Shown: in pieces, positions 34,201 to 55,236 of the stretch | Layout: each line of letters starts with the position of its first letter | Numbering within the stretch: the first letter of the stretch is position 1 | Assembly: GCA_014871385.1 (NCBI GenBank) | Contig: CM026427.1 | Span: 2,476,068-2,540,067, forward strand | Direction of reading: 5' to 3' | Origin: Ceratodon purpureus | Taxonomy: Eukaryota > Streptophyta > Bryopsida > Pseudoditrichales > Ditrichaceae | DNA: 64,000 bases | Translations under genes and position numbers: made by a program | The notes under the pieces: generated by a model | Seen by the model: only the letters and a program-made list of their open reading frames with translations | Databases searched by the model: none | Told to the model about the DNA's origin: nothing

Positions 34201-36298
34201 CTTTTTCTGGTGATGGAACCAGGCTGGCTAAGTGGATTTCTGCCAAGGGTATTAATCCTGGGTTGGCGTGCAGGACCAATGCTTCTTGATCTTGAGAGAG
34301 TCCTTTCACCCAGTCAGTCCCTGCTCGATGTCTGATCTGGGCTGCCTTGGCCCTTGTGATGCAACTATCAACAGGGATGATTACTGTCTTTCCTTGGCGT
34401 TGGATGCGAATGTGGTTTCGAGACCAGTCGTGCACGGCGTTCATGTCACGGAGCCAAGGTCTGCCAAGAATGATTGGGAAATTACTACTATTTGGCATGT
34501 CGATAATGACAAACGTGGCGGGTGTTGATACGCCATGGGTGGTAATAGCCACGGTAGCCAAGATCCCCAAGGGTGTGACAGGATCGTCGTTAGCCATCCT
34601 CAGGATGAATTTAGCAGTTTTTGGTTGGGGTAGTCCCAAGTGTTTTCGTAAATGTTCACTCATGACATTTACGCCAGATCCTCCGTCAACCAGAACATTG
34701 GTAAGCTCATGACGTCCCAGTTGCAGGTGGATTACCGCGGCGTCAGGGTCCAAGGTAGTGGCGTTTACTTCTACCACAGTGGGATCCTGGGTTGTCTCTG
34801 GCAAGGTTGCCTGTTGAAGGTACCTGTGTAATTCTGGACTAATTTTCAATAATTTAGACAAGGTTATGGTCACATTGGTATCATCCAGAATGTTTTGCAT
34901 GTCTGGGATTGTCGTGGTCATTTCTAGCCCCTGTTGCAGGTCCCTGCGAATGTCATGCAATCGTTCCCAATGGTCTGGAGGGAATGGTTTTCGGTGTTCC
35001 ACGACATGGTCAGTCACGGGGGCCTTGGAGCGTGTGGTGACGGCTGCGGCACTGATGGTGGCTACATTTGTCTCGGCATTGTGTACTTCTGTTAGAGTGA
35101 CCCCTCCTCGACGGTTAGGTACTGGTGGTCTTGGATTCTCCATGGTTGGAGGTGGGGGTCGGTGTGTCTCCGAGGGTCCTTGGTTTTGACCCCAGCGGTG
35201 TTTTAAATGTGGACATTGTCCTCGGCGGTGGTTGGGAGATCCACACTCCCAGCAGGTGTCGTTTCTCCCTGGCTGGAAGGCGTCCACGTTAATCTCTTCG
35301 GTGTACATGGAGGCTGTTGTGGGCCGTGGTCGCCGATTATCGTCTGGTCGAGAATTCCCTTGGGCGAACCAGCAACGACCACTATGTACCTTGCCACAAG
35401 TACCACAGACTGTGGGCGTTTGACGAATGTCGGATCTTACTGTTGGTAATGGTAGCAAGGGCGCCTGAGTACGGTTCAGGGCTCCAAGCTCCCGGCTTAT
35501 ATCATTGGCGGCCGTGAGTATATCATTTAGTGTTTTAACACCACGAATCACGATGCCCTGCTGAATCCATGGTAATAAGCCTTTCTTGAACCATTCACAT
35601 AAATAATCTTCTTCAGGCCTTTGGCTAAGTTTGTCTGCCAATTGCTTGAATCTGTCATAGAATTTGTCCACAGGTTCATTTCTGTCCTGAGTGATATTAC
35701 CCAAAGCCCTGAGTATTTCGGAGCTGGTTTTCAACTTTCGGAATTTGTGTAAGAAGCTACGTTCCATGTCGTCCCATGTGGCATGGGGGTGCTCAGTTTC
35801 AAAGTCGATGTACCAATTGATATGATTTCCTTGGAGTGTGGTTCCGAAAATGTTCTGTAAATCCAGGGAACTAAGTATTCCATTTGTGCGAGCAATGACC
35901 TTGAATCGGCGAATGTGCCAATCGGGGTCTCCTGACTCGTCAAAGACAGGGTATGGTATTTTCGGGAACTTGGTGATCCGGTCTTGGTCACCCCCATTCT
36001 GAGATGTCGCAGCAGTGCGGTTCTCTCTAGGCAGAGTAGTTGACCGAAGTGGATCCAACGGTGCTTCCAAGTCGTGCGGTGTAGCATTGACTGCCTCGTT
36101 GGTCGAGGTCCCGTGGAGATTTTGGTATTGGATGCTTAAGAGTTCCAGCTTGGCATTAGTGGCTTCGTTCTTGGCGGCCAAGGCTGTCATTTGGTCTTTT
36201 AAGAATTGTAATAGTTCTTTGGTAGGATCAGGATCGTCCTGCTGGTTTGTCTCTTCGACGTCATTGAGGCGATCAAGGGGCAGTTTTCGTGGAGGCAT
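28211..36298 (-). CDS. Ty3/gypsy Gag-Pol polyprotein with extra C-terminal module
   Basis: Single frame of 2,695 residues. Gag occupies about 1-370 and has a CX2CX4HX4C zinc knuckle (C349, C352, H357, C362). The protease motif VLVDGGSGVNVMS lies near 535-547. Reverse transcriptase spans about 800-1010, with YLDD at 960-963; RNase H starts near HVHTDASNIAVGVML (1106). Integrase has a HHCC-type finger (about 1320-1362) and a core with D in LDFVGPI (1391), D in SDQGSHF and E in GQAEST. After integrase a Pro/His/Ser-rich linker (1700-1960) leads to an additional module from Met1961 (ATG at 30418): an unknown globular segment, a long coiled coil (about 2225-2365), an acidic region, and a C-terminal finger with CPAC at 2625-2628 and QHA..H..H at 2641-2654. 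How the extra module is expressed (fusion or spliced mRNA) is not visible. Confidence 0.95.
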   Translation of the reverse strand: MPPRKLPLDRLNDVEETNQQDDPDPTKELLQFLKDQMTALAAKNEATNAKLELLSIQYQNLHGTSTNEAVNATPHDLEAPLDPLRSTTLPRENRTAATSQNGGDQDRITKFPKIPYPVFDESGDPDWHIRRFKVIARTNGILSSLDLQNIFGTTLQGNHINWYIDFETEHPHATWDDMERSFLHKFRKLKTSSEILRALGNITQDRNEPVDKFYDRFKQLADKLSQRPEEDYLCEWFKKGLLPWIQQGIVIRGVKTLNDILTAANDISRELGALNRTQAPLLPLPTVRSDIRQTPTVCGTCGKVHSGRCWFAQGNSRPDDNRRPRPTTASMYTEEINVDAFQPGRNDTCWECGSPNHRRGQCPHLKHRWGQNQGPSETHRPPPPTMENPRPPVPNRRGGVTLTEVHNAETNVATISAAAVTTRSKAPVTDHVVEHRKPFPPDHWERLHDIRRDLQQGLEMTTTIPDMQNILDDTNVTITLSKLLKISPELHRYLQQATLPETTQDPTVVEVNATTLDPDAAVIHLQLGRHELTNVLVDGGSGVNVMSEHLRKHLGLPQPKTAKFILRMANDDPVTPLGILATVAITTHGVSTPATFVIIDMPNSSNFPIILGRPWLRDMNAVHDWSRNHIRIQRQGKTVIIPVDSCITRAKAAQIRHRAGTDWVKGLSQDQEALVLHANPGLIPLAEIHLASLVPSPEKDDLPPRFSKETAGSVTVNTTPAFRALENEVVNGWTHGAKDKVELINLGTTEDPKFIKINADAPATIKQAAIALFKEYHDIFAWNHEDLKGIPRTLAEHTIDLVPNATPVQQRRYRMNPNYAIRVKEELDKLLKAKFISPVDSAPWLSPMVIIPKKNGTLRICVDFRKLNAATKKDHYPLPYMEEIIDEVAGHEMYSFLDCFSGYYQVAMAEQDKNKTAFSTEWGPYQFERMPFGAKNAPMTFQRVMELIFRPYLKRFFRIYLDDGTVYGQMNDHVKHLRHIFDACRANGVSLNADKCMFLFFAGVILGYIVCKYGKLPDPAKIKDILDMTPPKDQKGVQRLLGLSQFNRIYIEKLAHITAPITALNHSKYTYPRDWTPAAQAALDKIKEAYTHAPILIAPDWTKPFHVHTDASNIAVGVMLAQNLNGKHDQPVAYASRLLNPAERNYSTTEREALAMIYAVKKFRHYLLGNKFRFMVDHHSLSYLVNQPLITGRVARWIMILLEYDFEVVYIPGKRHIVADYLSRDTNTKEEGIDDSFNDLYIQAATVVVQDTQDWTRDIMRYLTTGTTPPGLTGTRKISFVRTTLPYTVVHGQLYRQGPDHVLRLCVPAQEQANILTHLHDGPVGGHQGPDTTIKKILTAKYWWPTLHRDVHVYIKNCHACQVATTNFQHQGRVPLKSTPPLGPFQRWGLDFVGPIRPVTRQGYKYILVATDYTTKWVEAKPLRTNTAVVTATFLYDNIITRFGCPLEIVSDQGSHFVNSVIEDLMEKHIIKHRTSTVYYPQGNGQAESTNKTIINMLRRFVHANQGDWDDCLPAALWAYRVATKTATQLSPFEMVYGTQPLLPTEYIAPTFQSMNPREYSPYKVLAARLQDIHHLEEIRALALKNITDKQALSAKHFQASQPARIFQKGDQVLWCPRDPKLKRTKFESIWHGPFRVQLALPNNTVLLVNNDYYDNQATIVNANKLKHYHTTSPNVAPKLSLGEIYTNLANDAQDLAEPAEDITVAPETTIAQNTQVQLHVSHIQVEPCDRQGIYSRRESYPETRPPGTSSPDINCHECHSGIHPGQVACHRTTLGHRTNNYQNCFGKPRPLSRTRTQNSASQITTPISNSRLPTHLVSHLGRHGHSRPIPPSQDYHSIELARTHGQPAQHGSNQPNHHDRPRLDRTPPPQSADSQPTYAFPVSTSTQPSHHALQITPTHLAIHPWQYHPPSPPPSPPLSLRVLGAPSHHSSPLFPPAHGLVVFSFLSVPRSALLELLSTMTTKTSMGPIYSPRMVREWKRKPDGAWLTKTHLIQYWTRLDGKVNVAQCMEFLASMKTRREDEAFPAGYVDGILVQYSPRYLHAFFGWDGTGATEWTPACNIPQPEVTGPINGVAPEADGRYDVFALGPALNEPWFARMRGVLSQIFFKNNCNRIQPEQLSLMLLADKGVKINWGLIVDEHFRVQLRGYRRDEAYSSPIGPFLTAYITRFLAYYRTHSQPPRIGTFLDLQRDLAMVAKRDPAAPSSSKRPRMAEPATTEGDSIKTELGPQAKEFQEQGKELATCVDRLLQFVHTMEQERITMAKQQGEIEERHKRKAIQTIQAAQAQAKQSITDAREECKSQLTEANQTLGNFRNQVATLELELAAAREQVEAMEKAKQLAEQRASRLEQQATEALARYKTLSESNQGAGTSAMTPRNAEELNDLQRLRTDTENAKTNFEANKAIWVQNAARLIATHAHRMLWEKPPTSAVPTQDFLDSCIDDAMVDLDLEQSEPSWDMDVDGMALEDTTTLEQPHPNSENLDSTHLANQEQELYAPVASLFPELHEQPDRVHIPDVATDTEDTPQASPRLLALVTNLPTLPAPAIPDIPSHGNQMVPAQPKSFREHKLALQKLEEEYDMEAERSDDSEGEEDSELAIAAVKNYFAAHPDLVRRYSDPEADNVQCPACNRILGKTVFDIYQHARTSRTKHNVLHRGVAAAIAAIFDNQDPPRRQAQVPREETRPDRRPAGRRSRH

Positions 36299-36365
36299 GG
36301 TGGTGGTCTAGGGCTTCGTAACCCAAATTGGTCAAGGTGGTTGTCTCACTGATCTCAAGTATCCA

Positions 36366-37094: not shown

Positions 37095-37233
37095 AAGACT
37101 ACGGTACAAAGCGTTTCCGTTATCGTCCTCTGGATATTATACGTTGTTTTATATTTCATTCACCACCAGCTTCAACTATCTATTAAGAATATATTAGTCG
37201 TTTTACATGAAATGAAGTAGTCACTCCATGCAG

Positions 37234-37762
37234 GAAGTTGGAGGAATCCAAGACATGGCTCAAATCCGCCATCAGAGAGGAGCTCCGCAGTGCACCCCTA
37301 TCTGTCCTCACGCGAGGGTGGTGCCTACCAATCGTAATGTGACACCTCTCTATACAACTTCCATACAGGACCTTGCTGGACCGGAGCGTACACCGGCATT
37401 ACAAAGAGAGCGAGAGCGCTTGACTCGGGTTCCTGATGAAGCCCGATGCTCACGGGAGGATAAAGAGCGCCAGAACAAGAAGAGATGCGTGCAGAACAGT
37501 TTGAAAGCACCGTACCTTGCAGAAATGAAGAAAGCACACGCGGAACAGAGATCCCCAAGTGCGATGATACCGACTTCTCCCACCGGCGAGGTCATTGGTC
37601 TGAAAACCGTATTTCACAATGCTGTTAGAACACTAGCTCGCCGATGTGTGAATTACTCCTACAGGTCCTACGTAGGGAGAAAAGGTGAATGGAAAGCAGT
37701 AATCGACGCCATAATGATGTCTTTGGAGTTAGTGTATGAATTCCCTCACCCACTGTCCCGGA
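37234..37762 (+). CDS. Transposase_24-like CACTA gene, central exon interrupted by the Mutator-like element
   Basis: Starts after acceptor ATGCAG|GAAG in phase 0 and runs open to the insertion point at 37762. Content: a basic, Arg-rich stretch (RERERLTRVPDEARCSRED), then VIGLKTVFHNAVRTLARR and WKAVIDAIMMSLELVYEF, a helical pattern typical of the Ptta/En/Spm (Transposase_24) family. The last 9 bp, TGTCCCGGA (37754-37762), recur at 55237-55245. Joining 37762 to 55246 keeps the frame, so the exon was intact before the Mutator-like insertion. In the present copy the frame runs into the inserted terminus and stops at about 37792. Confidence 0.7.
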
Positions 37763-37882
37763 GGGGAAAGTTCGTATGTGAGCGGAGAGCGTAGAGCGGA
37801 GAGCGGAGAGCACAGAATGGAGAGCACAGAATTGACAATTAGCAAAATTTTCAAAAGCAAAGTAGACCCTATAACCGTGGAA
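37763..37882 (+). repeat. Left terminal inverted repeat of the MULE
   Basis: Begins GGGGAAAGTTCGTATGTGAG, contains three tandem GAGCGGAGAG-like units and GAGAGCACAGAATGGA, which is also in the right end, and reaches the shared ACCCTATAACCGTGGA block. About 30 bp at the very end is well conserved; the rest is imperfect. Confidence 0.85.
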
Positions 37883-38170
37883 AATTACTAAATTAAGGCT
37901 TGATTTTGACACTTTTTTTAGGAAAAGAGTATATTACCGTGGAAATCAGGATTATCTCTGGTAAGAATTTATTACGTTTGTTCTCTAAGATACAAATTAG
38001 GGCTGATGTCATGATGACGTCATGCATACATTTTGTTAGATTTCTCATGAATTTAGGCAAGATATAATGATCAGGCGTTAAGTTCTAGATCAAACAATTA
38101 CTTCTTTCATAGGTTTATGTAAATGCAAAAGGAAAGAAACAAATTTCACAGAACATAAACGAGGCAAGGT

Positions 38171-39055
38171 TTGAAAACTTCCTGGAATATTTCGAAATTC
38201 GTGTATAATATCTGAACTGCTGAAACCAAGATATACCTTGTTAGAGTCCTTGTCTTCATCGAAGATTACTCTCTCTTCGTAGGCAGCAAAGCATCTTCAT
38301 TTGAGTGATACAAGTAGGAGATTTTCATCATCAAACAACACTTGGTAAGCTGGGTTACAGAGAAGGAGGTCACTCTTGGTTTCTTGAGCTTGTCTGTAGG
38401 TGGCGTATTAGGATAGTGACACAGTCCTTGGCATGCTGTGCTGTATGCGAAGGTAGCGTAGGAGTTCGGGGATGTCAATCTACAAGCTTGACTGTAACGT
38501 TTGAAGACTACAAGAATTCAGTGTGTTGCGCGATGCCGAAGGTGTGTAATGCGAGATCCAGGAGGACGAGAGCGGCTGTAGGTTTGCCCCCAAAGGCACC
38601 GGCGAGTTATGAGGAGCTGCGGCCGTGGCTGCTGGAGGTGGAGCGCGCTAGGGAACGAGGCATGGACTTGCCACCGTTTAGGCACATCGGAAGCCTCCAT
38701 GTTGGTGAAGGTGAATGGCGTTGGACAGTGCTGTGTACCAATGAGCTTCTCCGTATTATGGAGTTGTCCCTAATCCCGTATCCCTTGCTATCGAACGTTG
38801 ATGAGAATCCAGTTGTTCAGCTGCCCGAAGTGATCATATCGGATGGCGAAACTTGCTGGTTTGATATGGACAAGAGTTGGACTGTATATCCTTCGAAGGA
38901 TTAGTACTGTGAAGTCTAGTGGGGTGTTCGAATACATTCCTTTAGATTTAGGAATAAGAGAACTCGAAACCAACTTAAAGAGATGGGCTTAAAAGTTCCT
39001 GAAATATTTCAGAGTTCGTGTAGAATAATGGAGTAGCAGAAACCAAGATGTACAC
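38171..39055 (+). repeat. Imperfect direct repeats flanking a small MULE ORF
   Basis: About 65-70 bp at 38171-38240 (CTTCCTGGAATATTTCGAAA ... GCTGAAACCAAGATATACC) recurs imperfectly in the same orientation at 38994-39055 (TTCCTGAAATATTTCAGAGT ... GCAGAAACCAAGATGTACACC). The ORF 38533-38904 lies between. This may mark an old duplication or an insertion of the ORF segment. Confidence 0.6.
38533..38904 (+). CDS. Small hypothetical ORF carried by the MULE (123 aa)
   Basis: ATG at 38533 gives a basic N-terminus (MPKVCNARSRRTRAAVG), then EELRPWLLEVERARERGMDL, HVGEGEWRWTVLCTNELLRI and a C-terminus with ISDGETCWFDMDKSW. No family was recognised. The frame is also open further upstream to about 38305, but the ATG used has better protein-like content after it. 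It is flanked by direct repeats. Confidence 0.5.
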   Translation: MPKVCNARSRRTRAAVGLPPKAPASYEELRPWLLEVERARERGMDLPPFRHIGSLHVGEGEWRWTVLCTNELLRIMELSLIPYPLLSNVDENPVVQLPEVIISDGETCWFDMDKSWTVYPSKD

Positions 39056-39352
39056 CAAGTCAAGAATAGGTAACATGGTTAGGAAATGTGGGATTTTGAA
39101 TGGTTAAAATATAAGTTACAGCGCAATTTAAATTTAGAGCATTTCTTTTGTAACATTTCATTCTTCATATTATATTTTAAGCATTACGGTTGTGACATTT
39201 CATCCTCTACATACGAGGAGAGGATTTGGAAATAAGAATCGTAACAAGTATAGAGTCAGGGTAGTAGAGTAGACGAAGGATTACGCAATGAACTCCAATT
39301 AAATCAAATCAAATCCAATGAAAACAATGAAAGACCGAAGCCTCCTTCAAAC

Positions 39353-42300
39353 TCAGAACATGGTACCATCGCTACTTCCACTCTCAGAACTAGATGACTC
39401 TGAATCTCCTTCTACCGCCTCGTCATCGACGAATAAAAGGGCCCTGGGATCAAAAGTAGTTGGCCGACTAGGAACATATGTTAGGGCTCCAGATTGAAAC
39501 GCCTGTGCTAAGTCCTCTGCGTAGTCCGGAAGTATGAAAGGCTGAATCGGGCTGGAATGAAGACGCCACGATGGAGTGGACACTGCTCTTGGCCCACGTG
39601 GCGGTGATGCTGAAACTACTCTGCAATAGAGAACCAATTGTGGTTAGATAGAGTACGTAGAGCTGGAAAGAGAAGTAATGATTGCATAATTTGAACAAAG
39701 AATAGAAGACTTACACCACTTGTCAGGTCTTGCTCTCTTTGGAGGCGCTTCGCCTGCTGCTGCCGGCCTTGGATGTTTAGGAGGGCCCATGGCGGATGGT
39801 TTGAGAAGGGCGTTGAATATGGCTTCGTCCTCCTCAAAAGCGAGAATGTGGCGACCAACAGCCTGGGCAGCCTTGATGGAGGCTCCTGAAACTCGGAGAG
39901 ATACAAAGAAATGAGAAACTGTGGAAAAAACGAGAGGAAAAATGAAGCAGAGATATGTAAGAGAGATACCTGTCCCAGCATTCCAGTCAACGACTATGTC
40001 GCCGGGCTTGGACAGCTCCTCAATGATGTTCTGCATCATCTCAGGGGATTTCTCCCTTGGGCCTCTCCACGGCACCTCCCCATTCATGAGCTGAGATTCG
40101 GCATCGGTGAAGTTGAAAATGGCATCACTCTCGGTAATGTTGAGGAGCCCATGTATCAGGTCTTCCTTATTCGTCTGGAAGGAGAAAGTACTGCCACTAC
40201 GAACGTAGACGCGAATCCAGAACCGCATAGTCTGCAGTCAAGCAGAACTAGTGAGTAAAATTAAGCGGAAGGGTTATCAGTAAGCGAAGAGAAGGGCATG
40301 TTTAGGAAAAGTACCAAGTTCTCGGGGTTCGTAGGAGAAGTCAGGCCGAGTACATTGACCCCCCACCAGTCCTTGAACAGCACGTATCCACCAGCAGCAG
40401 CTTCTTCCTCGATATCCTTAGCCAGCTTCTGATCAGTGTTGTAGATGAGGCAGATGGCACCATCTTTCTGCAGGAAATCATCTGCAAAATGGAAGATGTC
40501 GTACAAATAATCCTTGTAGCGAGAGTTCCAAGGCGGAATACTCGTGGGGGGAACGGAAACGGATGGGACGGGAAGATTCTCAGGGATGTCGGCAATGATC
40601 AAGTCGACTCCCAGATGGTCCTCTTGTTTGCACCGGTCCCCAACTATGTTTTCGCGGCCTGCTCCAAACTTGAGGAAACAAGAAAGGAGAGTTAGTATCA
40701 ACATAGCGAGTAGAGGTGGCAGAATCCATTAGATGTCAAAATATAGGAACAAACCTTGCGAATGAAGTCTTGAGTCTTGATCCAATCCGGGTCGCCCCCT
40801 TTATGCTCCCGTCTCCTATTTCGCCGTAACAAGGAATCCACAGATGAGTTGAAGACGGAAACATGTGTGGAAATCGAAGCTCCAGCTGAAGAAGTTGTTT
40901 GAGGATATAGTTTGGCCTTCCTCTGCTGAAGGAGACCTCTGGTGATCTCCGAAGCACTGATCGAAGAAGGACCCGGTGAAGAAGTTGAAGACGGCTTCGT
41001 AACCACATTACCTGGAGAGGGCTCTGGTGCCGTCCGCTCTGGAGCGGAAGACGCCGCACCAGTTTGCTGTGAAGCTTGTGAATGTGATCGCAAAGATTTT
41101 AGTCGCCGAGCTCTCCCTTTCTTCGGTGGAGGAGCCGATGATTGGTCTTCAGGGCCTCCGCCATCTTCAGTAGCATCCACCGTTTCTTCGGCCACTACCT
41201 CACCGGCATCATGTAAAGTCTTGATGTCCACCTCAGAGTCAATAGTGAAACCTCGAAAACAATCAAGGTACCAACATCCCTCAAGCAAGTGGGGAGCTTT
41301 GTACCTTTTCAATTGTTGTGGAGAATAGATACACTGGTCCGAGGTTCTCGACGTCCAAGCAAGGAAGTAGCTGGGGAGCTGCTGGACGGTAAGGACGCCT
41401 TTTGGAATAAGCTCTCTCTTAAAGTACCTAAATAAACAATTTTAAAGAAGGTTAGCATCACTAAAATAAAAACAGCCCATTATTGCGGAAAACGAATGAC
41501 ATGAACATAACATACGTACCGATAAGTAACACGCTTGACAACCTCAGCGGTTCCAGGAAATTTAGCGAAGTTAGACTTCTTGTCATAAACCTTCTCAGCC
41601 TGCTTTCCAAGGAACGTCGGGAAGGCCTTGTCCCATAAAAGAATACGTGAACTCTCCACATAAGCCCCCGGTTCTTGGACATCCGGAAAATCCTTCCAAT
41701 TGATGATGAGGTTCTCCGCTTTGAATATGCCATCGACTTCGTTGATGACAGCTTCCTCCAACTATAATATAGACGAAAATATATTAGCGACGAGGTACGA
41801 GTTATGAAATAAAAAAACAAAAATGTAATTTGAATAATAAATGTAGAAAATATACCCCGGCCCAAAATGAAGCCTTGTTCAACCAAGGGTCGAGGTCGGT
41901 TTCCTTGAATTCCAACGGAAGGAATCTGTAAGATAGTCTGGAATTTGGGGATGAGTTCCACCACCTCAACCAGCGAGCCTTGTATTTGGGCTCAACTGCT
42001 GCTGGGACAATTTTCTGTAGCTTCTCAAGGGACATCTCCGGTTTATTGAAGTCACTGTAATGTCGATTGATCTGCATGAAGAGTGATAATTTTAGACGCT
42101 ACGAAGTAAGGAAATCACGTTGACATACGAAGTATCATAAATGGCATTAGTGAGTGTTTCACCTCATTGAAGAAGTCGTCACCATTCTTGGGATTCGCAA
42201 TGGCCAAGTACTTGGTGAAGTCCTTCTTCTTGATGGATTCGACCATTTTCTCAGATGCCTCATTCATGACATCCCAAACTGCATTTGCGGTTTGATCCTC

Positions 42301-45300
42301 CTCCGGTGTCTTCTCATAGTAGGCCCTCACTGCGTCATCGGAGGCTTGTGCAATTTCCCGCTGTTGAAACAAAAGTAATTATCAGGATATCGGAATTTAT
42401 CCAAGTTGCAGAAGCGAAGAGAGGATGGCGGCAAAACTTACACGATATAGAAGTGCTATAAAAATTTTGGTTGTCAAGGGAAACCACGACGGATTAGGTG
42501 GCTTGTGTTTCAGACATGCATCATATTCTTCAGCGCTAAGGAGGTCTTTAAAATCCTCCAGTTTCATCATCCCGAATGAGCGGATTCGAAACAACTTTGC
42601 TGGAAGATTACCCTTGACGTGGTCATTCTCAGTCGACCTGAAAATCAACGTTGAATATTAGAGGAAAAAAATGATGTAGCACAAAGGATTGAGTGTGCAC
42701 AATGAAGGATAGCATCAGAGAGAGTTACCAATTAATGTCGTGCATGGCGTGAAGCAACTTGCCCACATGGCCGCGGGGGTCAAGTATAATGCAATGCACG
42801 GAGATGTGCCATGCTGGGTCGTCCGCATGATGCTTGTTTATATGTCGGAGCCATGCAGCGAGGCGGTGGTTACCTTCCCAAACAAAAAACATCTTGTTGG
42901 AGAATTGCATCCAGTCCTCGTCACCACGGATCTCATCATCAAAACGATCACTCGCGGCCCTCCATAAAGGGCTCCAACCGGCTATGGTCTCCGCCGTAAC
43001 ATCCGTCGTTTGCTCCTCACTGTTGTATATGGAGATGTACATGACGCGGTCCCCATCCCTATACCCCTTAACAAACTCTCGCTCCAAGTGCTGTATCCCC
43101 ATTTCACCCACTGGTCTAACCTTGGCCATTGAAATCATCCTGCACAGGGGCACCATCAAGCGGGACTTCCTTTCTGGTTTAATCCTGAGTTTGTTGATGA
43201 CGCCAGTGGAGTCCAGCTTGTATTGTTTACGGTGCTCCAATTCGCCTTCTGAAGCAGTCTTCAAGTCTTCAGGACAAGATTGTTTTACCAACTCTTCTTG
43301 TGTTTGAGTAACCTGCAAAACGGTGTGCAGACTAATGTTGGAATCGCAACTTAAGTACTCTTGCAAGATACAGAAAAGCGAAATCACTTCATAATGATAA
43401 ATCTAATACAACAAGTTCAATATCATTTAAGCTTGAAGACTCTATCGACGTGATGATCGCCTATAATACTCCCTAGACTGTCTACAATTCCAATGACGGC
43501 GCCTCCTCCAGAAACGCCTCGTTTGTTGGACAGGGCATGGCAGAATTGCCGGCAGGGCAAACACAACATGGGCTGGCCGCCTCACTCTAATAGGCGAGGA
43601 TGGAGAGGGTGGAGACATCGGAGGCGAATCCTGCGTAGGAGATGTGGGCATATACCGAGGGGAAGTAGGCTCATATACAGGGGATGTAGGCATATAAACT
43701 GGAGAGGTAGGCATGTACTGTGGAGAATGGATCTCTAAAGGTACACTATCTAAACCTACAAGGCTTGCTACATCACAAGTACAATAGTGCTGATCAAATG
43801 AATCCGAAAGGTCAGAGACATTGATAACTGATATGGCGGAAGAGGCAGACATCTCAGGGGCATCAGAATATACCTATATTACGAAAAATGAAAAGGTTAT
43901 ATTCCGAGGTCAAAGGAAGATTAAAAGTAAGAAATAAACAACATTTCAGAAATGCTGAATCATCAAAAGGTTAAGGTTCAATTCAAAGTACCTCGGTCTC
44001 CGCAGGAGTTGGGACTTGAATTTGGCTCCCCATATTATCCTCAGATGACTCCTAGATAACGTACAATTAAACGATGATTAGGATGAAACAATGAAACAAT
44101 GTGAGGGCCCCGACAAAGTGTTGGGGCCGAATGCTTCTCTCAAGCATCACATTTAAAGAAAAAAAAAAGCAAGAGCCCACTGCAGCAGGGCCCCGACAAG
44201 GATTCGGGGCCGAATGTATGGTGGAGTGCACATTCACTCAAAAAAAAAGAGGCTTCGGCCCTGCTTCCTCGGCCCCTCCCCGAAGGGAGAGCCTCAGCAA
44301 GAGCCCACTGCAGCAGGGCCCCGACAAGGATTCGGGGCCGAATGTATGGTGGAGTGCATATTCACTCAAAAATAAAAAGGCTTCGGCCCTGCTTCCTCGG
44401 CCCCTCCCCGAAGGGAGAGCCTCAGCAAGAGCCCACTGCAGCAGGGCCCCGACAAGGATTCGGGGCCGAATGTATGGTGGAGTGCACATTCACTCAAAAA
44501 TAAAAAGGCTTCGGCTCTGCTTCCTCGGCCCCTCCCCGAAGGGAGAGCCTCAGCAAGAGCCCACTGCAGCAGGGCCCCGACAAGGATTCGGGGCCGAATG
44601 TATGGTGGAGTGCACATTCACTCAAAAATAAAAAGGCTTCGGCCCTGCTTCCTCGGCCCCTCCCCGAAGGGAGAGCCTCAGCAAGAGCCCACTGCAGCAG
44701 GGCCCCGACAAGGATTCGGGGCCGAATGTATGGTGGAGTGCACAATCACTCAAAAAAAAAGAGGCTTCGGCCCTGCTTCCTCGGCCCCTCCCCGAAGGGA
44801 GAGCCTCAGCAAGAGCCCACTGCAGCAGGGCCCCGACAAGGATTCGGGGCCGAATGTATGGTGGAGTGCACATTCACTCAAAAAAAAAAGGCTTCGGCTC
44901 TGCTTCCTCGGCCCCTCCCCGAAGGGAGAGCCTCAGCAAGAGCCCACTGCAGCAGGGCCCCGACAAGGATTCGGGGCCGAATGTATGGTGGAGTGCACAT
45001 TCACTCAAAAAAAAAGAGGCTTCGGCTCTGCTTCCTCGGCCCCTCCCCGAAGGGAGAGCCTCAGCAAGAGCCCACTGCAGCAGGGCCCCGACAAGGATTC
45101 GGGGCCGAATGTATGGTGGAGTGCACATTCACTCAAAAAAAAAGAGGCTTCGGCTCGGCTTCCTCGGCCCCTCCCCGAAGGGAGAGCCTCAGCAAGAGCC
45201 CACTGCAGCAGGGCCCCGACAAGGATTCGGGGCCGAATGTATGGTGGAGTGCACATTCACTCAAAAATAAAAAGGCTTCGGCCCTGCTTCCTCGGCCCCT

Positions 45301-48300
45301 CCCCGAAGGGAGAGCCTCAGCAAGAGCCCACTGCAGCAGGGCCCCGACAAGGATTCGGGGCCGAATGTATGGTGGAGTGCACATTCACTCCAAAAAAAAG
45401 AGGCTTCGGCTCTGCCTCCTCGGCCCCTCCTCGAAGGGAGAGCCTCAGCAAGAGCCCACTGCAGCAGGGCCCCGACAAGGATTCGGGGCCGAATGTATGG
45501 TGGAGTGCACATTCACTCAAAAATAAAAAGGCTTCGGCTCTGCTTCCTCGGCCCCTCCCCGAAGGGAGAGCCTCAGCAAGAGCCCACTGCAGCAGGGCCC
45601 CGACAAGGATTCGGGGCCGAATGTATGGTGGAGTGCACATTCACTCAAAAATAAAAAGGCTTCGGCCCTGCTTCCTCGGCCCCTCCCCGAAGGGAGAGCC
45701 TCAGCAAGAGCCCACTGCAGCAGGGCCCCGACAAGGATTCGGGGCCGAATGTATGGTGGAGTGCACAATCACTCAAAAAAAAAGAGGCTTCGGCTCTGCT
45801 TCCTCGGCCCCTCCCCGAAGGGAGAGCCTCAGCAAGAGCCCACCGCAGCAGGGCCCCGACAAGGATTCGGGGCCGAATGTATGGTGGAGTGCACATTCAC
45901 TCAAAAATAAAGAGGCTTCGGCTCTGCTTCCTCGGCCCCTCCCCGAAGGGAGAGCCTCAGCAAGAGCCCACTGCAGCAGGGCCCCGACAAGGATTCGGGG
46001 CCGAATGTATGGTGGAGTGCACATTCACTCAAAAAAAAAGAGGCTTCGGCCCTGCTTCCTCGGCCCCTCCCCGAAGGGAGAGCCTCAGCAAGAGCCCACT
46101 GCAGCAGGGCCCCGACAAGGATTCGGGGCCGAATGTATGGTGGAGTGCACATTCACTCAAAAATAAAAAGGCTTCGGCCCTGCTTCCTCGGCCCCTCCCC
46201 GAAGGGAGAGCCTCAGCAAGAGCCCACTGCAGCAGGGCCCCGACAAGGATTCGGGGCCGAATGTATGGTGGAGTGCACATTCACTCAAAAATAAAAAGGC
46301 TTCGGCCCTGCTTCCTCGGCCCCTCCCCGAAGGGAGAGCCTCAGCAAGAGCCCACTGCAGCAGGGCCCCGACAAGGATTCGGGGCCGAATGTATGGTGGA
46401 GTGCACATTCACTCCAAAAAAAAGAGGCTTCGGCTCTGCCTCCTCGGCCCCTCCTCGAAGGGAGAGCCTCAGCAAGAGCCCACTGCAGCAGGGCCCCGAC
46501 AAGGATTCGGGGCCGAATGTATGGTGGAGTGCACATTCACTCAAAAATAAAAAGGCTTCGGCTCTGCTTCCTCGGCCCCTCCCCGAAGGGAGAGCCTCAG
46601 CAAGAGCCCACTGCAGCAGGGCCCCGACAAGGATTCGGGGCCGAATGTATGGTGGAGTGCACATTCACTCAAAAATAAAAAGGCTTCGGCCCTGCTTCCT
46701 CGGCCCCTCCCCGAAGGGAGAGCCTCAGCAAGAGCCCACTGCAGCAGGGCCCCGACAAGGATTCGGGGCCGAATGTATGGTGGAGTGCACAATCACTCAA
46801 AAAAAAAGAGGCTTCGGCTCTGCTTCCTCGGCCCCTCCCCGAAGGGAGAGCCTCAGCAAGAGCCCACCGCAGCAGGGCCCCGACAAGGATTCGGGGCCGA
46901 ATGTATGGTGGAGTGCACATTCACTCAAAAATAAAAAGGCTTCGGCTCTGCTTCCTCGGCCCCTCCCCGAAGGGAGAGCCTCAGCAAGAGCCCACTGCAG
47001 CAGGGCCCCGACAAGGATTCGGGGCCGAATGTATGGTGGAGTGCACATTCACTCAAAAATAAAAAGGCTTCGGCCCTGCTTCCTCGGCCCCTCCCCGAAG
47101 GGAGAGCCTCAGCAAGAGCCCACTGCAGCAGGGCCCCGACAAGGATTCGGGGCCGAATGTATGGTGGAGTGCACAATCACTCAAAAAAAAAGAGGCTTCG
47201 GCTCTGCTTCCTCGGCCCCTCCCCGAAGGGAGAGCCTCAGCAAGAGCCCACCGCAGCAGGGCCCCGACAAGGATTCGGGGCCGAATGTATGGTGGAGTGC
47301 ACATTCACTCAAAAATAAAAAGGCTTCGGCCCTGCTTCCTCGGCCCCTCCCCGAAGGGAGAGCCTCAGCAAGAGCCCACTGCAGCAGGGCCCCGACAAGG
47401 ATTCGGGGCCGAATGTATGGTGGAGTGCACATTCACTCCAAAAAAAGAGGCTTCGGCTCTGCCTCCTCGGCCCCTCCTCGAAGGGAGAGCCTCAGCAAGA
47501 GCCCACTGCAGCAGGGCCCCGACAAGGATTCGGGGCCGAATGTATGGTGGAGTGCACATTCACTCAAAAATAAAAAGGCTTCGGCCCTGCTTCCTCGGCC
47601 CCTCCCCGAAGGGAGAGCCTCAGCAAGAGCCCACTGCAGCAGGGCCCCGACAAGGATTCGGGGCCGAATGTATGGTGGAGTGCACATTCACTCAAAAATA
47701 AAAGGCTTCGGCTCTGCTTCCTCGGCCCCTCCCCGAAGGGAGAGCCTCAGCAAGAGCCCACTGCAGCAGGGCCCCGACAAGGATTCGGGGCCGAATGTAT
47801 GGTGGAGTGCACATTCATTGGAGCAGGCACGCCTATTCTCCCTATTCCCACAATATGTTCTATGCCAAATGCCGCAAGCCAATCCCATCCCATTCCACAT
47901 TCAAGATCCCGTGAACCCACAAACAGAACCCCACATTCAAGATCCCGTGAACCCACAAACAGAACCCCACAATCAACAACCACCGCATCCCAAACCCAAC
48001 TCGCAACCGGAACCAACATGCGCGTTGGAATTCAAAAGGAAATAGCAATTCACCTGTTCAACCTATACCCAAAACAACGGATGCAATGTCAAGTGTAGCA
48101 GCTCACCTGAGAGTCATTTTCCTCGCGGGAATGGTGACTGTCTTCGTCTTCCTCCTCTTCCTGCCCACCATCCTCGTTGACTTCTTCTTCTTCCTCTCCA
48201 AGCTCCTCCCGGTCGTCGCCGTCGCTGTCCCTTCCAACTTCTCCATCCCTGTGGTCGCCTTCAACTTCTCGCGCGGCCTCCATTCCGAGAGCCTCCTCAA

Positions 48301-49283
48301 CGGCCGGCTGTGGCTGCTCTTCTCTCCCAAGACCCCGCCCACCCCGCCCGAGACCTCCTCGACGCCCCCTTCCTCGGTCCATCTCCAAACCCTTCTTGTC
48401 TGCTTTTCGCCCACTACCTCTTTCATGCCCTACAGGTCGATCTCCCCGACCCCCACCTTTCCGCTGACCTCTCTTGGAACCTCCAAGAGCCCCTTGTGCC
48501 CGATCTACAGCCTCCCCTTCCTCCATGATTGCTTTTCTTGCCCTTGCAGCCCCTCCCAACCAGTCACTGAATTCTTCTAGCGCTACTAAATCGTCACCTC
48601 TCACTCCTCCACCCTGTTTAGCATACCTAGAACCTCCCCCCTCTGTCCACTACTTCAAAATTACAACGTCAGCTACTTCAAGGCTGTGATTTCCGTTTTT
48701 ACAATTTCTAAACTTCGTCTATTATGATATAATGCATAACTGAAGTCATCATTTACAACTGAAAATATGCCATCAACTGATTATAACGAGGCCGTCAACT
48801 TCAAAACTGTATTGGAGAAATTGAATCGTAAATCAATGAAAATCGACTTACCTCGGTGGAGTTACAATCATCGACGAATCCTACATTTCTCTCTTTCGAA
48901 CGTGAATTATTTAAACCAAATGACGGCTGCGGAGACTCTGGAGTTTTTAAAGAATTGAACCCTAACTCCTCACACATATCTTTCCCTTGTTCCACCATGC
49001 TATCTAGAACCTCTTCAACTACCCTGTCATCTAATACCTCCTGTTTAAACTCCGCTATGGACTCTAGAATAAGTTTACGAATACTACAAAAATTTTTAGC
49101 CAAAGGCAATCCAGCTCCCCGTCTCTTCAGAGGTGCGCTCAGAAGGTTGCCTTTCGACTTTACCTGTCTACGTGACTCTCTTCTCTTCCTCGCTCTTCTA
49201 TCGGTAAAATCTGTACCACCTGGTTTTCTTCTACGTTTAGGAGTGACATAAGTGGAGGGAGATGGCCCTCCACTCTGCTTCAT
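39353..49283 (-). CDS. MULE-borne gene: CTD-like heptads + ParB-like domain + N6/N4 DNA methyltransferase-like domain
   Basis: Fourteen-exon model, all GT..AG with matching phases: 49283-48852, 48613-48107, 44051-43992, 43873-43586, 43312-42729, 42637-42442, 42360-42163, 42071-41856, 41761-41520, 41427-40755, 40668-40315, 40231-39970, 39885-39715, 39609-39353 (about 1,479 residues). Exon 1 has basic NLS-like clusters ([20 protein letters not shown]); exon 2 is Gly/Arg/Glu-rich. Residues 386-413 are four heptads of form Y-x-P-T-S-P-x. Residues about 490-600 resemble a ParB/sulfiredoxin fold, with EGNHRLAAW near 575. The C-terminal domain (about 1133-1395) follows the bacterial beta-class order: motif IV-like [12 protein letters not shown], then [37 protein letters not shown], motif I DWNAGTGASIKAA and motif II ILAFEED. 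The canonical DPPY/SPPY is replaced by DIPE, so catalysis is doubtful. A Ser/Glu-rich tail ends the protein. It is divergent from the transposase gene. The exon 4 donor (AGA|GTGAGG) and the last acceptor are the least certain joints. Confidence 0.7.
43634..43717 (-). other. RNA polymerase II CTD-like heptad array (4 repeats)
   Basis: Encodes [21 protein letters not shown] and YMPTSPT in tandem, followed by [12 protein letters not shown]. This matches the Y-S-P-T-S-P-S consensus at Tyr1, Pro3, Thr4, Ser5 and Pro6 but lacks Ser2. It lies in exon 4 of the ParB/methyltransferase-like gene. Confidence 0.85.
44103..47815. repeat. 128-bp GC-rich tandem repeat (satellite), about 28-29 copies, in intron 2 of the methyltransferase-like gene
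   Basis: The marker GTATGGTGGAGTGCAC recurs 29 times from 44216 to 47797 at 127-128 bp spacing; a divergent partial unit starts at 44103. Each monomer has a perfect 8-bp stem GGCCCCGA..TCGGGGCC with a 7-nt loop and a second pairing CTTCGG..CCGAAG. A monomer variant with CTCCAAAAA and CTCCTCGAAG occurs near 45367, 46391 and 47415, exactly 1,024 bp (8 monomers) apart, and its neighbours repeat in the same order, so the array has a higher-order period. The intron (48106-44052) is spliced phase 0 in the gene model. Long ORFs across the array are artefacts. Confidence 0.96.
47898..47969. repeat. 36-bp tandem repeat, two copies
   Basis: CATTCAAGATCCCGTGAACC and its continuation occur twice in tandem (47898-47933, 47934-47969), in the intron between the satellite and exon 2 of the methyltransferase-like gene. 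Confidence 0.85.
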
Positions 49284-49863
49284 GTGTCTAACCACAGGAA
49301 GGACTCTCTTACAAAAAGACTCTCAGGAGAGCTTCCTCCCAGCTTAAATACCTATGACGTACCACTATTTTTATTAAACCTTAAGCTCAAATACTTTCTA
49401 AACCACTGACACATTATATACCCACTTTAAATCAAGAGTACCAATGATAATTCTATATTAAAGTAAAGTTTAAACTATCAGCCCTAAAATAAAAGGTAGA
49501 TATCCGAGCACTTCAATGCTTGCCGCTTTTAAAATTCATTGTTTTAAATGTAGAATTTAAATGACGGCTCATTCTAATCCTATAATAAATCATAACAAAT
49601 AGAATGTGTTCCACGATTCAAATTATCTATGTAGAGTTCTAAAAATCTTACCTCATATTCTTAGACCTGCAAAAAGTGGCATTATAATTAGTTAGCGCCG
49701 TCTCTACATTCGTTACCTAACAGAATGAATCATTCTCCAACTGTTCACTAGGACATTCCAACTTGAATAAAATGATCAACAACGATGCATCATTCCTCTC
49801 ACTTTGCTCTCGCGATACGGCATTGCTAATACACTCTCTCTTCTACTCTCTGCGTCTGTAAAC
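49284..49863. promoter_or_regulatory. Shared divergent promoter of the methyltransferase-like and transposase genes
   Basis: 580-bp AT-rich spacer between two head-to-head ATGs (49283 minus, 49864 plus). On the minus strand a TATA-like TATTTAAG at 49343-49350 lies about 60 bp upstream of the ATG. On the plus side a pyrimidine-rich leader (CTCTCTCTTCTACTCTCTGC) precedes the ATG. Such an arrangement would couple expression of the two genes; that is inference. Confidence 0.5.
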
Positions 49864-52800
49864 ATGGGAATGGTGTGCCTGTACGCCCAAGGCATGGGCA
49901 TCCCTCTTAGGTTTCGCGTAGATGACGATGGTCGTGCTACAGTCTCCTCTCTTCGCTTGAGTCTCAGATTCCATTTCCGTGAGGATTCTATCAGTATAGA
50001 GGAGGAGATCTTTGATGACGTTACTGCCGAGGTTACCCACACCCTCGGCCAACCTTCAGTGAGAGATGAGAACAACATGTTGCAGTGGAGACTCCTCCCT
50101 GGATCCTATAGAGTCTATGGTCTTACTGATTCTCTTATGGCTGCATCCACTGAGATCCTCACCCCCCGTCGCTCTTCTACTTGCACAATTCAGACTCCCT
50201 TACCTCGTGATGTCAAGGTCAAAGTCGAGCCTGGTACGGAGACTTCAGATGTAGAGAAACCTCCTCCGACCGTCATATCTCTCTCTTCTGATGACGAAGT
50301 CAGTCCCGTCAAGTTGGTGCCTAAGGTCCACGCAGATGCTCCTCCTTCCAATGTGTCTCCACCATTGTCCCAGGTCATAGTTAGCATTGTTCCGCTCCTT
50401 AAAGAGATTGCTAAGACGCGTGGGTCGAAAAACATTTTGAAGAAGATAGACTATTCCACTATTAGACACGAGAGAGTTGAGTACTTGCCTGCGAAGTTTG
50501 ATGGTCCGGTTCTTTTTGAGTTGCCCCCAGCTGCTGCAGGATCCTCTAAGCTCGCCGCCAAGTCTATGCAGGGAATGGACAAACGATACGACGGACACTT
50601 GTGGACCAAGACCATCACAACAAACATCAAAAACGACTTCGGACTCTCTTTTCGAAGTTCCACCTGCGTCGGATGGCTCCGCTGCAGCAACAATGAGTGT
50701 GACTTCCTGAAGCGTGTTCCCAAGATCTTCGAGGTTAACGAGACTGAGTTTGAAGGCTGTACCCTGCAAGCTTTTGTCATGGACCAGCCTTCTCCATCTG
50801 ACTCCACGCTAGTGTGCAAGGTATGTAAAGAACCTCCATCATGTGTAGCTACATGCGAGGCTAAGATTTATTACGTTGTGGGCAAACCGAATCAGACTAG
50901 AGCGTGTATTCACATAGGAACACATGATCATCCAGTGAAAGTAGGAGACTACAGAGACTCTAAAGCAGAGATTAGTAGCTTAATAGAAGAGCAGGTAGAG
51001 ATGAACAACAAAGCAACGAAGAGCGCCGTTGTCTTGGAGGCGAGCAAACTCCTCATCGGGAGCTACCTTCTACAGCCCGAGGATGCACCACCGAGGAAAC
51101 TGACGATGGAGGAGCTGGTTCCTGTTCTGGATCGATGCAAAGACATGGCGTCGCCCAACATCCGCAACAAAGTCGCCACCTTCAAAAAATTCGTAAGGTA
51201 CGGAATCATGGACGGTATCACCAAGCTCCGTGGTAACAGTCTCTGGGCGTATGTCCAGGAGAACAGGTTTCCTGGTCAGGGATCCATGCGTGACAAAGTC
51301 TTTGTCTTCAAGATGTCGGAGGTCGGGCCGGGCAGTGGTGTCGACTTGGTCAGCCGTATGCAAGCTGGTGGCGATTTGGAGAACGCATGGATCATGTTCG
51401 ACCATGTCAAACGCGTCAAAGATTGGTCGACGATGGCGTGCCATGTGTACGACGCCACCTACTGCCGCGTGATGACAATCGCCACTTGCGACATGCAGTC
51501 CGAGGACACGGACGCCCAGCTCGTCTTCTGGAAAAACCTGAACCTGGTCATGGAGATCAATGGCGTTGCAGCGCCGAACTTCAAGGGGTTCATGGCGGAT
51601 AACGCACAGGCCAATTGGAATGCAGTGCGAATCCTTTACGGCAATGGCAACAAGGAAGACCCAATGGAGGACCGGGAGAGGTCGTGCTTGTTCCACTGGA
51701 CTCAGAACATGGTGGCGTATACGCAGAAGCACTTCCCCGAAGAACTCTGGGAACAGCACAAGAAGATGTGCACTCAGTACAAGAATGCGACCAGCATGGC
51801 AGAGGCGGAAACTCTGTACCACGCGTTGCGAGCATGGTGGGCATCCACCGGGGTCGTCGGGGAGAGCGGGCTCATCAAACTCGATCAGTGGCTGTCATTC
51901 TGGCACCACCGCTTCCGCCAGTGGGGGGGATTCATGACCGAGGTATTCTCTATGCACTCTGTTTTTATGTTTTTCATACTGGTTTCCTAGCCCTAACCTA
52001 CAAAAGTCTAATCCGTGAATCTAACGGCACCTACTGTCAAACCTGCAGAAATTCACAAAAGAAGAACTCACAGAGATGCCTACCTGTAACCTCGCCGAAA
52101 CAGTTCACAACAAGTGGCTCCAAGCTTCAGGAAACAACGGAAACGACCTCTACGTTGCTACCGTGGACGATTTCGTTCGGGCATTTCTACAGGTTGTCAA
52201 CTACTACCAGTTCCTCAAAGGTGACGTCGGCGGAACAGGACCATCTAAGAAGGAACTCAGGCTTCGGATGGCTGAACGCAACGCGAAGAAATGGGGAAAT
52301 CCTACACTGCTCGACAAGCCCATGCTCGATATGCCAGGCGCGGATGAGTTCTGCACCCGTCAGCCTATCATGCCTGGAGCGGAAGTCTTCGGTTCACAGA
52401 AGCGAAAAGCCGACGTCCTTATCGGAGCTGACGAGGAGTCTCATCGCCCGGACAAGACAAACTTCTCACGCCCAAGAGGCCCAAGACGTGCCGTGAGGCC
52501 TCGCCCTATGCAGATGCCCGTCATTGTGGAAGACGACTCCGACCACGACACCGAGGTACAATGTACGCAACCTCCTGCTCAGGAAGTTGATTCCCCTTTA
52601 CCTTCACCTGTGAACAAGGGCGGCATTCGCCATGTCAACGCGGTTGAAGAAACCAAGGTCGACGTGAAGGAGTGGCACATCTCGAGACTTCACAAACTTT
52701 CAGCGAAGTGCTGCTGGGCCCAAAGAGCTGAAACGAAGAAGAAGTGCACTGAGAGAATCGTCAGGGGGCCCCATTGCACAGCTGCACCGACCTACAGTGG

Positions 52801-53542
52801 GCTCTGGACTAACTATCGCAGGAACCTAGTGGAGAAGACTGAGTTCTTCTTCTGCTCCGACGATATTGAGCGTTGCGTGAAAGGCTCTAAGCGCAAGTGG
52901 GTAGCACACTACTCAAAGGACCAGGAATTCCCCTCCATTCCAGAGGTTTGGCCAGTGAAACTAGGTACTAACCTAAAACTTACTGAGATTCTTGCCCTCG
53001 AAGCAGCGGGCTTTCAACTTCCGCCGAAGAAACCAGTCTCCCCAAGACGCCTCTTCTCCTCTGCCCCGCCTCCTGCAAATCTCAGCTCAGTGCCAGTCCC
53101 TGCAGACGCTGACCGCTACCCAGGGAAGAGAGACGGCAAGATGGTGAAGCGCACTGCCACTCGTCCCAATCAAGCGCAGCGACTCTCCATGGGCTCCTCC
53201 GAGTCTCTTAAAGCGCGCCTCCGTTCCGTCACCATGATACCTGAGCCGGGCCACGGTTGCATCATTGGGCTGGATTCGGGCGTCGCTCCACACATCACAC
53301 GGTACCAGATTACCATCAGTTCTTACCCTGGTTGCACTTGCCCAGCATTCAAGAAGACAATGACTACGTTCCGTGGGAAGACTCAGTTCACGTATTGTAA
53401 GCACCTATACTACATATTCTTGAAGGTCTGCAACCGTGATCCCGAAGCGGAGCTTTTCATCCATGCGCCTACCTTCAGCTTCAACGAGGTCAAGGTACTC
53501 TTAGAGGGTGGAATCTTGCGTCACCCCTTGGCGAAGAAGTAG
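49864..53542 (+). CDS. Mutator-like transposase with zinc-binding region and SWIM finger (1,190 aa)
   Basis: DDE-type transposase that should act on the terminal repeats of this element. Two exons, 49864-51942 and 52049-53542, joined in phase 0. The frame is open upstream, but the first ATG is at 49864 (MGMVCLYAQGMG). A Ser/Asp-rich linker is followed by a zinc-binding region with C274, C279, C318, C321 and H350/H354/H356 (CSNNEC ... LVCKVC ... HIGTHDH), resembling the WRKY-GCM1/FLYWCH-type fingers of MULE transposases. The catalytic region has D530 in YDATYC and D579 in FMADNAQANW; the third acidic residue is not fixed. Exon 2 contains a basic/acidic linker and a C-terminal SWIM finger (C1122, C1124, C1143, H1145; CTCPAF ... 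YCKH). No stop or frameshift is seen, so the element may be autonomous. Placement with MULEs rests on the 9-bp duplication, long TIRs and SWIM domain. Confidence 0.88.
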
Positions 53543-53796
53543 GTAGCCCTCCTACTTTAGAACTTCCATTTCCACAATGGCCATTTGTCACGTAGTGAAT
53601 GATTTTAGTAATATACCATGTACTAAGTCAGCTATTCAGAAGCTGTATTGACTTTTTCATTATATTAAAGGCTTTGTCGTTCACATTGATTGCATTCTAT
53701 TTCAATACATTGTATCTTGAAGAAGTGCACTATATACCTCGTATCCCCTGACATGTACCCTTTATTAAGGCAAACATATACTTGTTATTAGATGTC

Positions 53797-54249
53797 CTAA
53801 TCTTCGAACCTAACACGTTTAGGGTTGCCCACTACACTATCAGCAGGACTGCGAGCCGCTGACTGTACTACAGGACAAACTACATTCGCATTCACTTTCG
53901 TTCCCACACTTGGCAAATGTCCTTGGTATGATCGTTTCAGCAATGGCCCACCTCCCCGCCTCCGATTAACTGATTCCCTGGAATAGGTTCCCCTTGGGAT
54001 CTTTCCAACCTTCGAGTATGCATGTGGTTGCAAAGGCACATCTGCGTCCTTCTCTAGCACTATGATTTCATCCGAATTTTCTGAACGTGGAGGGTCAGCT
54101 CTTACATCCGGTTGTACCGCAACATCCGATGTCGACGGACGCCCTTGGCTGTTGGCCATCACCTCTTCTTCGTCCTCCACCTCAACATATGGTTGAAATG
54201 GACAAACATCGTCAGCGAGTGAAACAACAATATCTCTGACGTCTTCCAT
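53797..54249 (-). CDS. Small hypothetical ORF carried by the MULE (150 aa)
   Basis: ATG at 54249, convergent with the transposase gene. The product is acidic at first (DDVCPFQPYVEVEDEEE), then has a SENSDEIIVLEKDAD stretch that looks like a SUMO-interacting-type acidic/hydrophobic patch, and ends in a basic tail (NRRRGGGPLLKRSYQG, NPKRVRFED). No family was recognised. It may be an accessory protein of the element. Confidence 0.5.
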   Translation of the reverse strand: MEDVRDIVVSLADDVCPFQPYVEVEDEEEVMANSQGRPSTSDVAVQPDVRADPPRSENSDEIIVLEKDADVPLQPHAYSKVGKIPRGTYSRESVNRRRGGGPLLKRSYQGHLPSVGTKVNANVVCPVVQSAARSPADSVVGNPKRVRFED

Positions 54250-55028: not shown

Positions 55029-55236
55029 CCACGGTTATAGGGTCAATTAAATTACTAAAATTAGTAACTTCCCAAAAATATACTAAGAATATTCGGATCT
55101 TCTAATTTTACAATTTATTTTTAGTAAAAAAAGTGCTATTTTAAGGTTCTGTCTTCCATTCTGTGCTCTCCGCTCTCCAAATCTGCGCTCACCGCTCTCC
55201 GCTCTGCGCTCTCCGCTCACGTACAAGCTTCCCTCC
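55029..55236 (-). repeat. Right terminal inverted repeat of the MULE
   Basis: Ends CTTCCCTCC at 55236 and contains tandem CGCTCTCCGCTC-type units that mirror the left end, plus the inverted ATAACCGTGGA block near 55029-55040. The TGTCCCGGA target duplication follows at 55237-55245. Confidence 0.85.

Follow-up and report, generated by a model that had tools for sequence, protein, structure and literature searches.

Why would a DNA transposon of a moss carry a gene that joins a ParB-like domain to a DNA methyltransferase-like domain, and what might such a protein recognize? The question is raised by a stretch of 64,000 nucleotides from Ceratodon purpureus (NCBI GenBank assembly GCA_014871385.1, contig CM026427.1, positions 2,476,068 to 2,540,067 of the forward strand), here called the window and numbered from its first letter. 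The window contains a transposon of 17,473 bp (37763 to 55235), delimited by terminal inverted repeats (TIRs) and a perfect 10-bp target site duplication (TSD). Within it lies a 14-exon accessory gene (39353 to 49283, minus strand) whose spliced model encodes 1494 amino acids (aa), is open throughout and has GT-AG introns. A sequence-only reading of the same DNA had placed a gene of 14 exons inside a DNA transposon, and these features bear it out. That reading also held such cargo to be unusual, which in kind it is not. Passages of a study of Ectocarpus describe Sola1-1_Ec32, in which the strand that does not encode the transposase carries a gene for a 1104-aa protein with a ParB-like and an N4C/N6A methyltransferase domain, and they cite further ParB-methyltransferase cases from green and red algae (PMC12477816). 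This pair of domains has been published before in a giant DNA transposon and is not new. What is new here is an altered catalytic motif IV, a palindromic tandem array in intron 2, the joining, in one copy, of a diverged ParB half and its array to nearly the same methyltransferase half, and conserved heptads that resemble the carboxy-terminal domain (CTD) of RNA polymerase II. The sequence-only reading named neither the array as a possible target nor the module exchange nor the heptads. Among the open-licence PMC papers listed in our searches, we saw none that described a ParB-methyltransferase gene in a moss or a Mutator-like element, a palindromic array accompanying such a gene, or CTD-like heptads.

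Intron 2 of the window copy consists mostly of a tandem array (44168 to 47817) with 28.5 units of 128 bp that carries TCGGGGCCGA, or TCGGCCCCGA on the gene strand. The units diverge widely around a palindrome, TCGG-CC-CCGA, which is referred to as site 1. All 29 exact matches to the core in the window lie inside the array, against 0.04 expected. The array is found at the same position in each of ten joined copies, where it has 3.1 to 84.8 units of 127-139 bp; in one of the ten it runs past the end of the DNA fetched. It lies within 1.5 kb of exon 5 in 18 of the 20 loci L001-L020, a set that includes the window and the ten joined copies. The other two, L016 and L020, have no array within that distance, and the array of L016 is located further up. 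Twelve additional, more diverged copies were sampled with 750 bp, and nine of them have the array, while L043 has neither array nor core.

For a closer comparison, 23 units of the 128-bp type were reduced to 15 non-redundant ones by dropping those more than 90% alike. These share a mean identity of 54% (11 of the 15 are exactly 128 bp long) and contain two conserved blocks. Block 1, GCGGAGGC...GCCGAGGATGC, has an internal hairpin. The second block is the 10-bp core TCGGCCCCGA, which is 97% conserved against 57% outside both blocks; the best other segment reached 85%, and none of 20,000 permutations was as high. Unit rotation was anchored on block 1, which in itself accounts for part of that block's conservation; site 1 is not affected by this. 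The 15 units (set A5) were not selected for symmetry. In them 80.0% of site 1 cells are paired against 72.2% after shuffling (1/500), and covariation is 0.278 against 0.172 (2/500), figures that are not probabilities because the rows are related. Sliding the partners by one column leaves a pairing of 39-47%. Pair types are no more numerous than in the shuffles of these units (130/500), and in 10 of the 15 units the outermost pair does not hold. A larger alignment of 20 rows (A3) gave 81.8% paired against 69.1 and a covariation of 0.342 against 0.174 (0/500), but this score is inflated because rows L046, L048, L049, L050 and L052, which A5 omits, were found through a palindrome search; L051 was excluded from A3 for its close resemblance to L046 and L048. 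The arms of site 1 vary beyond the fixed core yet tend to stay complementary.

A second palindrome, CTACTGTC-N6-GACAGTAG, is present in 7 of the 12 additional copies (L046-L052), whose ParB exon is 79-83% identical to that of the window. Four of these have a unit of about 200-212 bp, and L049 and L050 have single palindromes and no TRF array. L047 keeps the 128-bp layout, with the second palindrome where site 1 would be. Among copies that have the first palindrome, identity in the ParB exon reaches down to 83% (L044, L045), so ParB identity does not cleanly separate the two kinds.

An array in an intron need not be a protein-binding site. It could be a structured intronic RNA, a source of small RNAs or an intronic enhancer, with the ParB-like protein directed at something unrelated. 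Its intronic position agrees with this, as does the block 1 hairpin, which shows covariation and a wobble bias towards the sense RNA: there are 14 G-T against 2 A-C pairs, 11 of the 14 G-T at a single pair, and the sense RNA is the more stable in 13 of 15 cases. Site 1 behaves differently. The 20 rows of A3 have 7 G-T and 3 A-C pairs at site 1, with the sense strand more stable in 5 and the antisense strand in 11, which is no clear sense bias, and the dyad symmetry persists while the arms change. We therefore consider an RNA or enhancer role combined with an unrelated target decidedly unlikely. In this light site 1 resembles a DNA target of a dimeric protein, and block 1 may have a role as RNA.

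What kind of protein could bind such a site? Bacterial ParB binds palindromes (parS) and can spread as a cytidine triphosphate (CTP) clamp, and its canonical motif is GERR. A ParB/sulfiredoxin fold is supported for the domain encoded by exon 5 of the accessory gene (42729 to 43312, minus strand), an assignment made solely by its modelled fold, with a modest Z. The domain contains the motif EGNHR, and its G-x-x-R loop (G147 N148 H149 R150) is kept in at least 90% of 42 sequences; the moss protein thus has GNHR where ParB has GERR, and CTP and DNA binding are predicted at most. No ParB-family match in Pfam was obtained at E 1 when 42 family members were scanned singly, and a profile search of the PDB with alignment A1 returned two matches, at E 0.75 and 1.1. 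The ParB-like domain that was first read from the letters thus agrees with the structure and fails at the level of the Pfam profile. The exon-5 frame has 50 database relatives, and searches of viral contigs and prokaryote genomes with the ParB exon or its alignment confirmed no relative there.

The ParB part of the gene is under the stronger selection. Pooled ratios of nonsynonymous to synonymous change (dN/dS) against ten copies rise along the gene, from 0.15 (exon 5) through 0.23 (exons 6-9), 0.34 (exon 10) and 0.53 (exons 11-13) to 0.59 (exon 14); the window is the reference in every pair, so the pairs are non-independent, and gapped codons were dropped. These values bear on the idea that the gene is accidental cargo, a captured fragment drifting in a Pack-MULE-like element. 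Mutator-like elements often acquire extra reading frames (PMC6446971), and some copies of the moss gene are damaged. Frame-breaking gaps occur among the ten copies in exon 4 (three copies), exon 8 (two) and exon 10 (one), single stops occur in exons 10-13 of 3 of the 10, and stop codons were seen by eye in 24 of 150 scored exon-5 places. A low dN/dS and 50 relatives of the exon-5 frame are not what a drifting fragment would leave, and accidental capture is extremely improbable.

The second domain of the protein is encoded by exons 11-13 (39715 to 40668, minus strand). A PF01555 match above cut-off, a PHROGs match and a fold match support a beta-class N6A/N4C DNA methyltransferase fold, as had been proposed from the motif order. 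The beta-class enzymes CcrM, MboIIA and PvuII, Tetrahymena MTA1 and bdelloid N4CMT share with it the fold and the order of motif IV before motif I. The moss domain differs from these at the catalytic site. The consensus of motif IV is [DNS]PP[YFW], and the window protein, aligned to CcrM, has DIPE in place of DPPY (40579 to 40590, minus strand). Thirteen homologs were found; ADIPENL is kept in all ten that span motif IV, seven of which are 33-54% identical to the query. Motif I begins as DWNAGTG (39970 to 39988, minus strand) and runs on into exon 13. Against the S-adenosylmethionine (SAM) motif consensus FxGxG the window has NAGTG, and the first glycine is kept in 2 of 6 homologs spanning this motif.

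One explanation of the gene is that it encodes an active N6A/N4C methyltransferase that is guided by its ParB domain to its own sites, where it writes a bacterial-type mark that protects the element or switches it on. In favour are a significant match to active families and folds and a pooled dN/dS below 1 in the methyltransferase exons. The same pairing is read in this way in Ectocarpus, in the passages that describe it (PMC12477816). The replacement of DPPY by DIPE, its conservation in all ten homologs and the retention of the first glycine of motif I in only 2 of 6 speak against it, as does the weaker constraint on the methyltransferase exons than on the ParB exon. Because the altered motif is itself conserved, ordinary methylation by the moss protein is doubtful, and we regard a self-guided active methylase as unlikely. 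The original proposal of a modifying or modification-reading protein is accordingly weakened in its first half, and its second half fits better. METTL14 and MTA9 are degenerate partner subunits and offer a parallel to a methyltransferase fold with altered motifs.

The two halves of the gene can have separate histories. The locus L053 was compared with the window in steps of 150 bases, and it is 91-100% identical over the stretch between 39300 and a point near 40950 within exon 10, with exons 11-14 at 94.7-99.6%. Beyond this break, exons 3-9 are 72-85% and the introns 52-73% identical. The array of L053 carries the second palindrome, CTACTGTC-N6-GACAGTAG, and the break falls in a low-complexity linker. 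L053 thus joins a diverged ParB half and its array to a near-identical methyltransferase half, which is one clear case of module exchange. It can be read as a swap of a putative specificity half against a shared effector half. The ParB half and the array are kept together by linkage alone. A correlation between ParB and methyltransferase identities (n=21, Spearman -0.47, p 0.03) was left unused because the pairs were hand-picked from two best-150 lists and the rows are non-independent; the evidence that counts is the break in L053.

Exon 4 encodes four heptads of the type YMPTSPV (43637 to 43714, minus strand), which form a 21-bp repeat in the DNA. By a relaxed pattern there are four heptads in 18 and three in 2 of the 20 loci L001-L020, and five in L053. 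They score 0.0027 against the Pfam Rpb1 repeat model, which is below cut-off. In sequence they resemble the CTD, and they are conserved among copies.

Two known systems suggest how these parts might work together. VirB is a CTP-binding anti-silencing protein of the ParB superfamily (PMC10653881). VANC, from the VANDAL elements of Arabidopsis, is an anti-silencing protein too, and the tandem repeats that it targets lie in noncoding regions and diverge fast (PMC10398659). The likeness to ParB-parS and VirB lies in the ParB fold and in palindromic cognate sites. The likeness to VANDAL, as far as that study describes it, lies in a Mutator-like element that has an additional gene and, in noncoding DNA, quickly diverging tandem repeats with short motifs; it is a likeness of layout, and an anti-silencing role in the moss is proposed by analogy. 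A ParB-fold protein, a palindromic array of its own and strong selection on the ParB part give the moss element parts that match the VANC and VirB precedents.

We tentatively favour, at somewhat less than an even chance, the explanation that the accessory protein is a sequence-specific self-recognition factor that binds its own array and acts in a VANC-like anti-silencing role, with the methyltransferase fold serving mainly as a binding module. The ParB/sulfiredoxin-fold protein would be made and would then bind the palindromic sites in intron 2 of its own gene. Its ParB domain would perhaps load at the array and spread along the DNA as a clamp in the manner of ParB at parS. Bound to arrays of its own kind, the protein would counter host silencing and keep those copies expressed, much as VANC acts on VANDAL elements. 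The methyltransferase fold would mainly bind nucleic acid or a modification on it and not work as an ordinary methylase, and the CTD-like heptads would possibly draw transcription factors. We infer array binding, spreading, anti-silencing and the lack of methylation alike; what the analysis establishes is the element, the gene model, both folds, their conservation and selection, the array with its conserved palindromes and one case of module exchange. The fuller version, in which a ParB-parS-like element-specific anti-silencer has its own loading array, CTD-like heptads and a pseudo-methylase reader, and in which the specificity half is swapped and the effector half is shared, is held with low confidence.

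If this self-recognition explanation is true, unrelated transposon genes have twice reached the combination of a self-encoded recognizer and self-carried, fast-diverging target repeats against silencing, and a bacterial partition-type protein serves as the recognizer of a moss transposon. It would also give the enigmatic ParB-methyltransferase proteins of algal transposons a function that can be tested, and it would mean that the methylase fold of the moss family may not methylate. The moss can be grown in the laboratory, and two exons of the gene each have at least 150 strong places in its genome, which makes the question directly testable. Sola1-1_Ec32, as the Ectocarpus study describes it, resembles the moss element in having both domains in one protein, a giant DNA transposon and a strand opposite to the transposase (PMC12477816); the moss gene model likewise puts both domains in one element-borne gene. 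The moss element differs in its transposase, its 10-bp TSD and its host. The altered motif IV, the intronic palindromic array and the CTD-like heptads are features of the moss, with the algal proteins compared by description only.

The left TIR (37763 to 37832, plus strand) contains short internal repeats, GAGCGGA, and the right TIR lies at 55155 to 55235 (minus strand). The arms of 52 nt are 87% complementary, and short repeats are present in both TIRs. The TSD, CTGTCCCGGA, is found at 37753 to 37762 and 55236 to 55245. Both copies that were read at both ends have a perfect 10-bp TSD; the second, on C13, is an element of 14,571 bp flanked on both sides by GAATATGGCC. The transposase gene has two exons (49864 to 51942 and 52049 to 53542, plus strand, with the intron placed by eye), encodes 1190 aa and is divergent from the accessory gene. 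It matched no Pfam family at E 10. A pattern D...D...C-x-x-H followed by CxC...CxH (SWIM-like) near the end of exon 2 was read by eye and compared with motifs of MULE-type DDE transposases. Mutator-like elements have a TSD of 8-11 bp (PMC6446971), and the 10-bp TSD and the TIRs of the window element fall within this description. The Mutator-like identity given in the sequence-only reading is therefore likely; the ends fit and the transposase is without a Pfam match, so the label is not proven.

The protein might instead aid transposition, through recognition of ends or sites or pairing of copies, with the array as a binding or replication site and no anti-silencing. The transposase side and the accessory-gene side recur together as a divergent pair in 7 of 9 copies readable past the array (c6_50610+ is left out of this count), and the short repeats in both TIRs would suit a protein that recognizes ends. 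The exact palindromic-core matches in the window, however, lie only in intron 2 and none is at the ends, and two copies keep the accessory gene yet show no transposase in the DNA read past the array, namely c13_12786+ (5.3 kb) and c4_17779- (12.7 kb), so the idea of a transposase present in every copy was dropped. An aid to transposition is thus quite unlikely in our judgement. A second transposase gene, about 50% identical, was seen close to the element at the copy C13:11505089 (joined L034+L035, 18108-20000).

The transposon is high-copy. For exon 5, the best 150 of 1902 first-look places were scored and all are 78-100% identical; for exon 12, the best 150 of 1645 were scored and all are 91-100% identical. 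Exons 1-5 of the accessory gene are at 49283-48852, 48649-48107, 44051-43992, 43873-43586 and 43312-42729, exons 6-10 at 42637-42442, 42360-42163, 42071-41856, 41761-41520 and 41427-40755, and exons 11-14 at 40668-40315, 40231-39970, 39885-39715 and 39618-39353, all on the minus strand; exons 1, 2 and 14 are the least certain. The fusion of a ParB-like and a methyltransferase domain, claimed earlier and found again here in one open frame, is a prediction of this gene model. Exons 6-10 (40755 to 42637, minus strand) form a middle region with the low-complexity linker and gave no Pfam match. In a comparison with the diverged copy L053, identity is 79.5-84.8% for exons 5-9 and 52-67% for the introns that follow them, a contrast to be expected of real exons. 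The part from aa 440 to 1494 was compared with a collection of 5.8 billion sequences, and there was no match at E 1 among the best 7999 candidates scored; searches with separate pieces of the protein did give relatives.

The window copy is not of one piece. Its exon 1 is 77-78% and its exon 2 73-83% identical to copies that elsewhere match it at about 95%, so this copy too is mosaic, with exons 1 and 2 spanning 48107-49283. Intron 12 (39886-39969) is 84 nt long and stop-free in frame, so its retention would lengthen the protein; the homolog P0052 of another source has the same layout. The very similar copies at C13:12701876 and C2:18106839 (L026-L027 and L024-L025) lack exons 12-14 as far as their DNA was fetched, and a 22-bp repeat, CCTGAACCCGCTCGCGCCCCCC, was seen close to the expected start of these exons.

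Several other features were noted in and around the element. An open frame of 155 aa (53797-54264, minus strand) lies to the right of the transposase, with a best Pfam match of 0.14. A stretch of about 1.1 kb (38174-39298) with an open reading frame at 38305-38904 (plus strand) is missing from c13_12786+, c4_17779- and c13_11505-, and a related stretch sits reversed beside the copy c2_9571. Plus-strand open frames at 37216-37794 and 55128-55580 cross both ends of the element, which may therefore have been inserted into a gene of an older repeat. Elsewhere in the window, a DUF4218 protein (17900-18841, minus strand; Pfam 1.4e-32) presumably belongs to a CACTA-type element, and an open frame of 2698 aa (28211-36307, minus strand) resembles by eye the polyprotein of a Gypsy-type retroelement.

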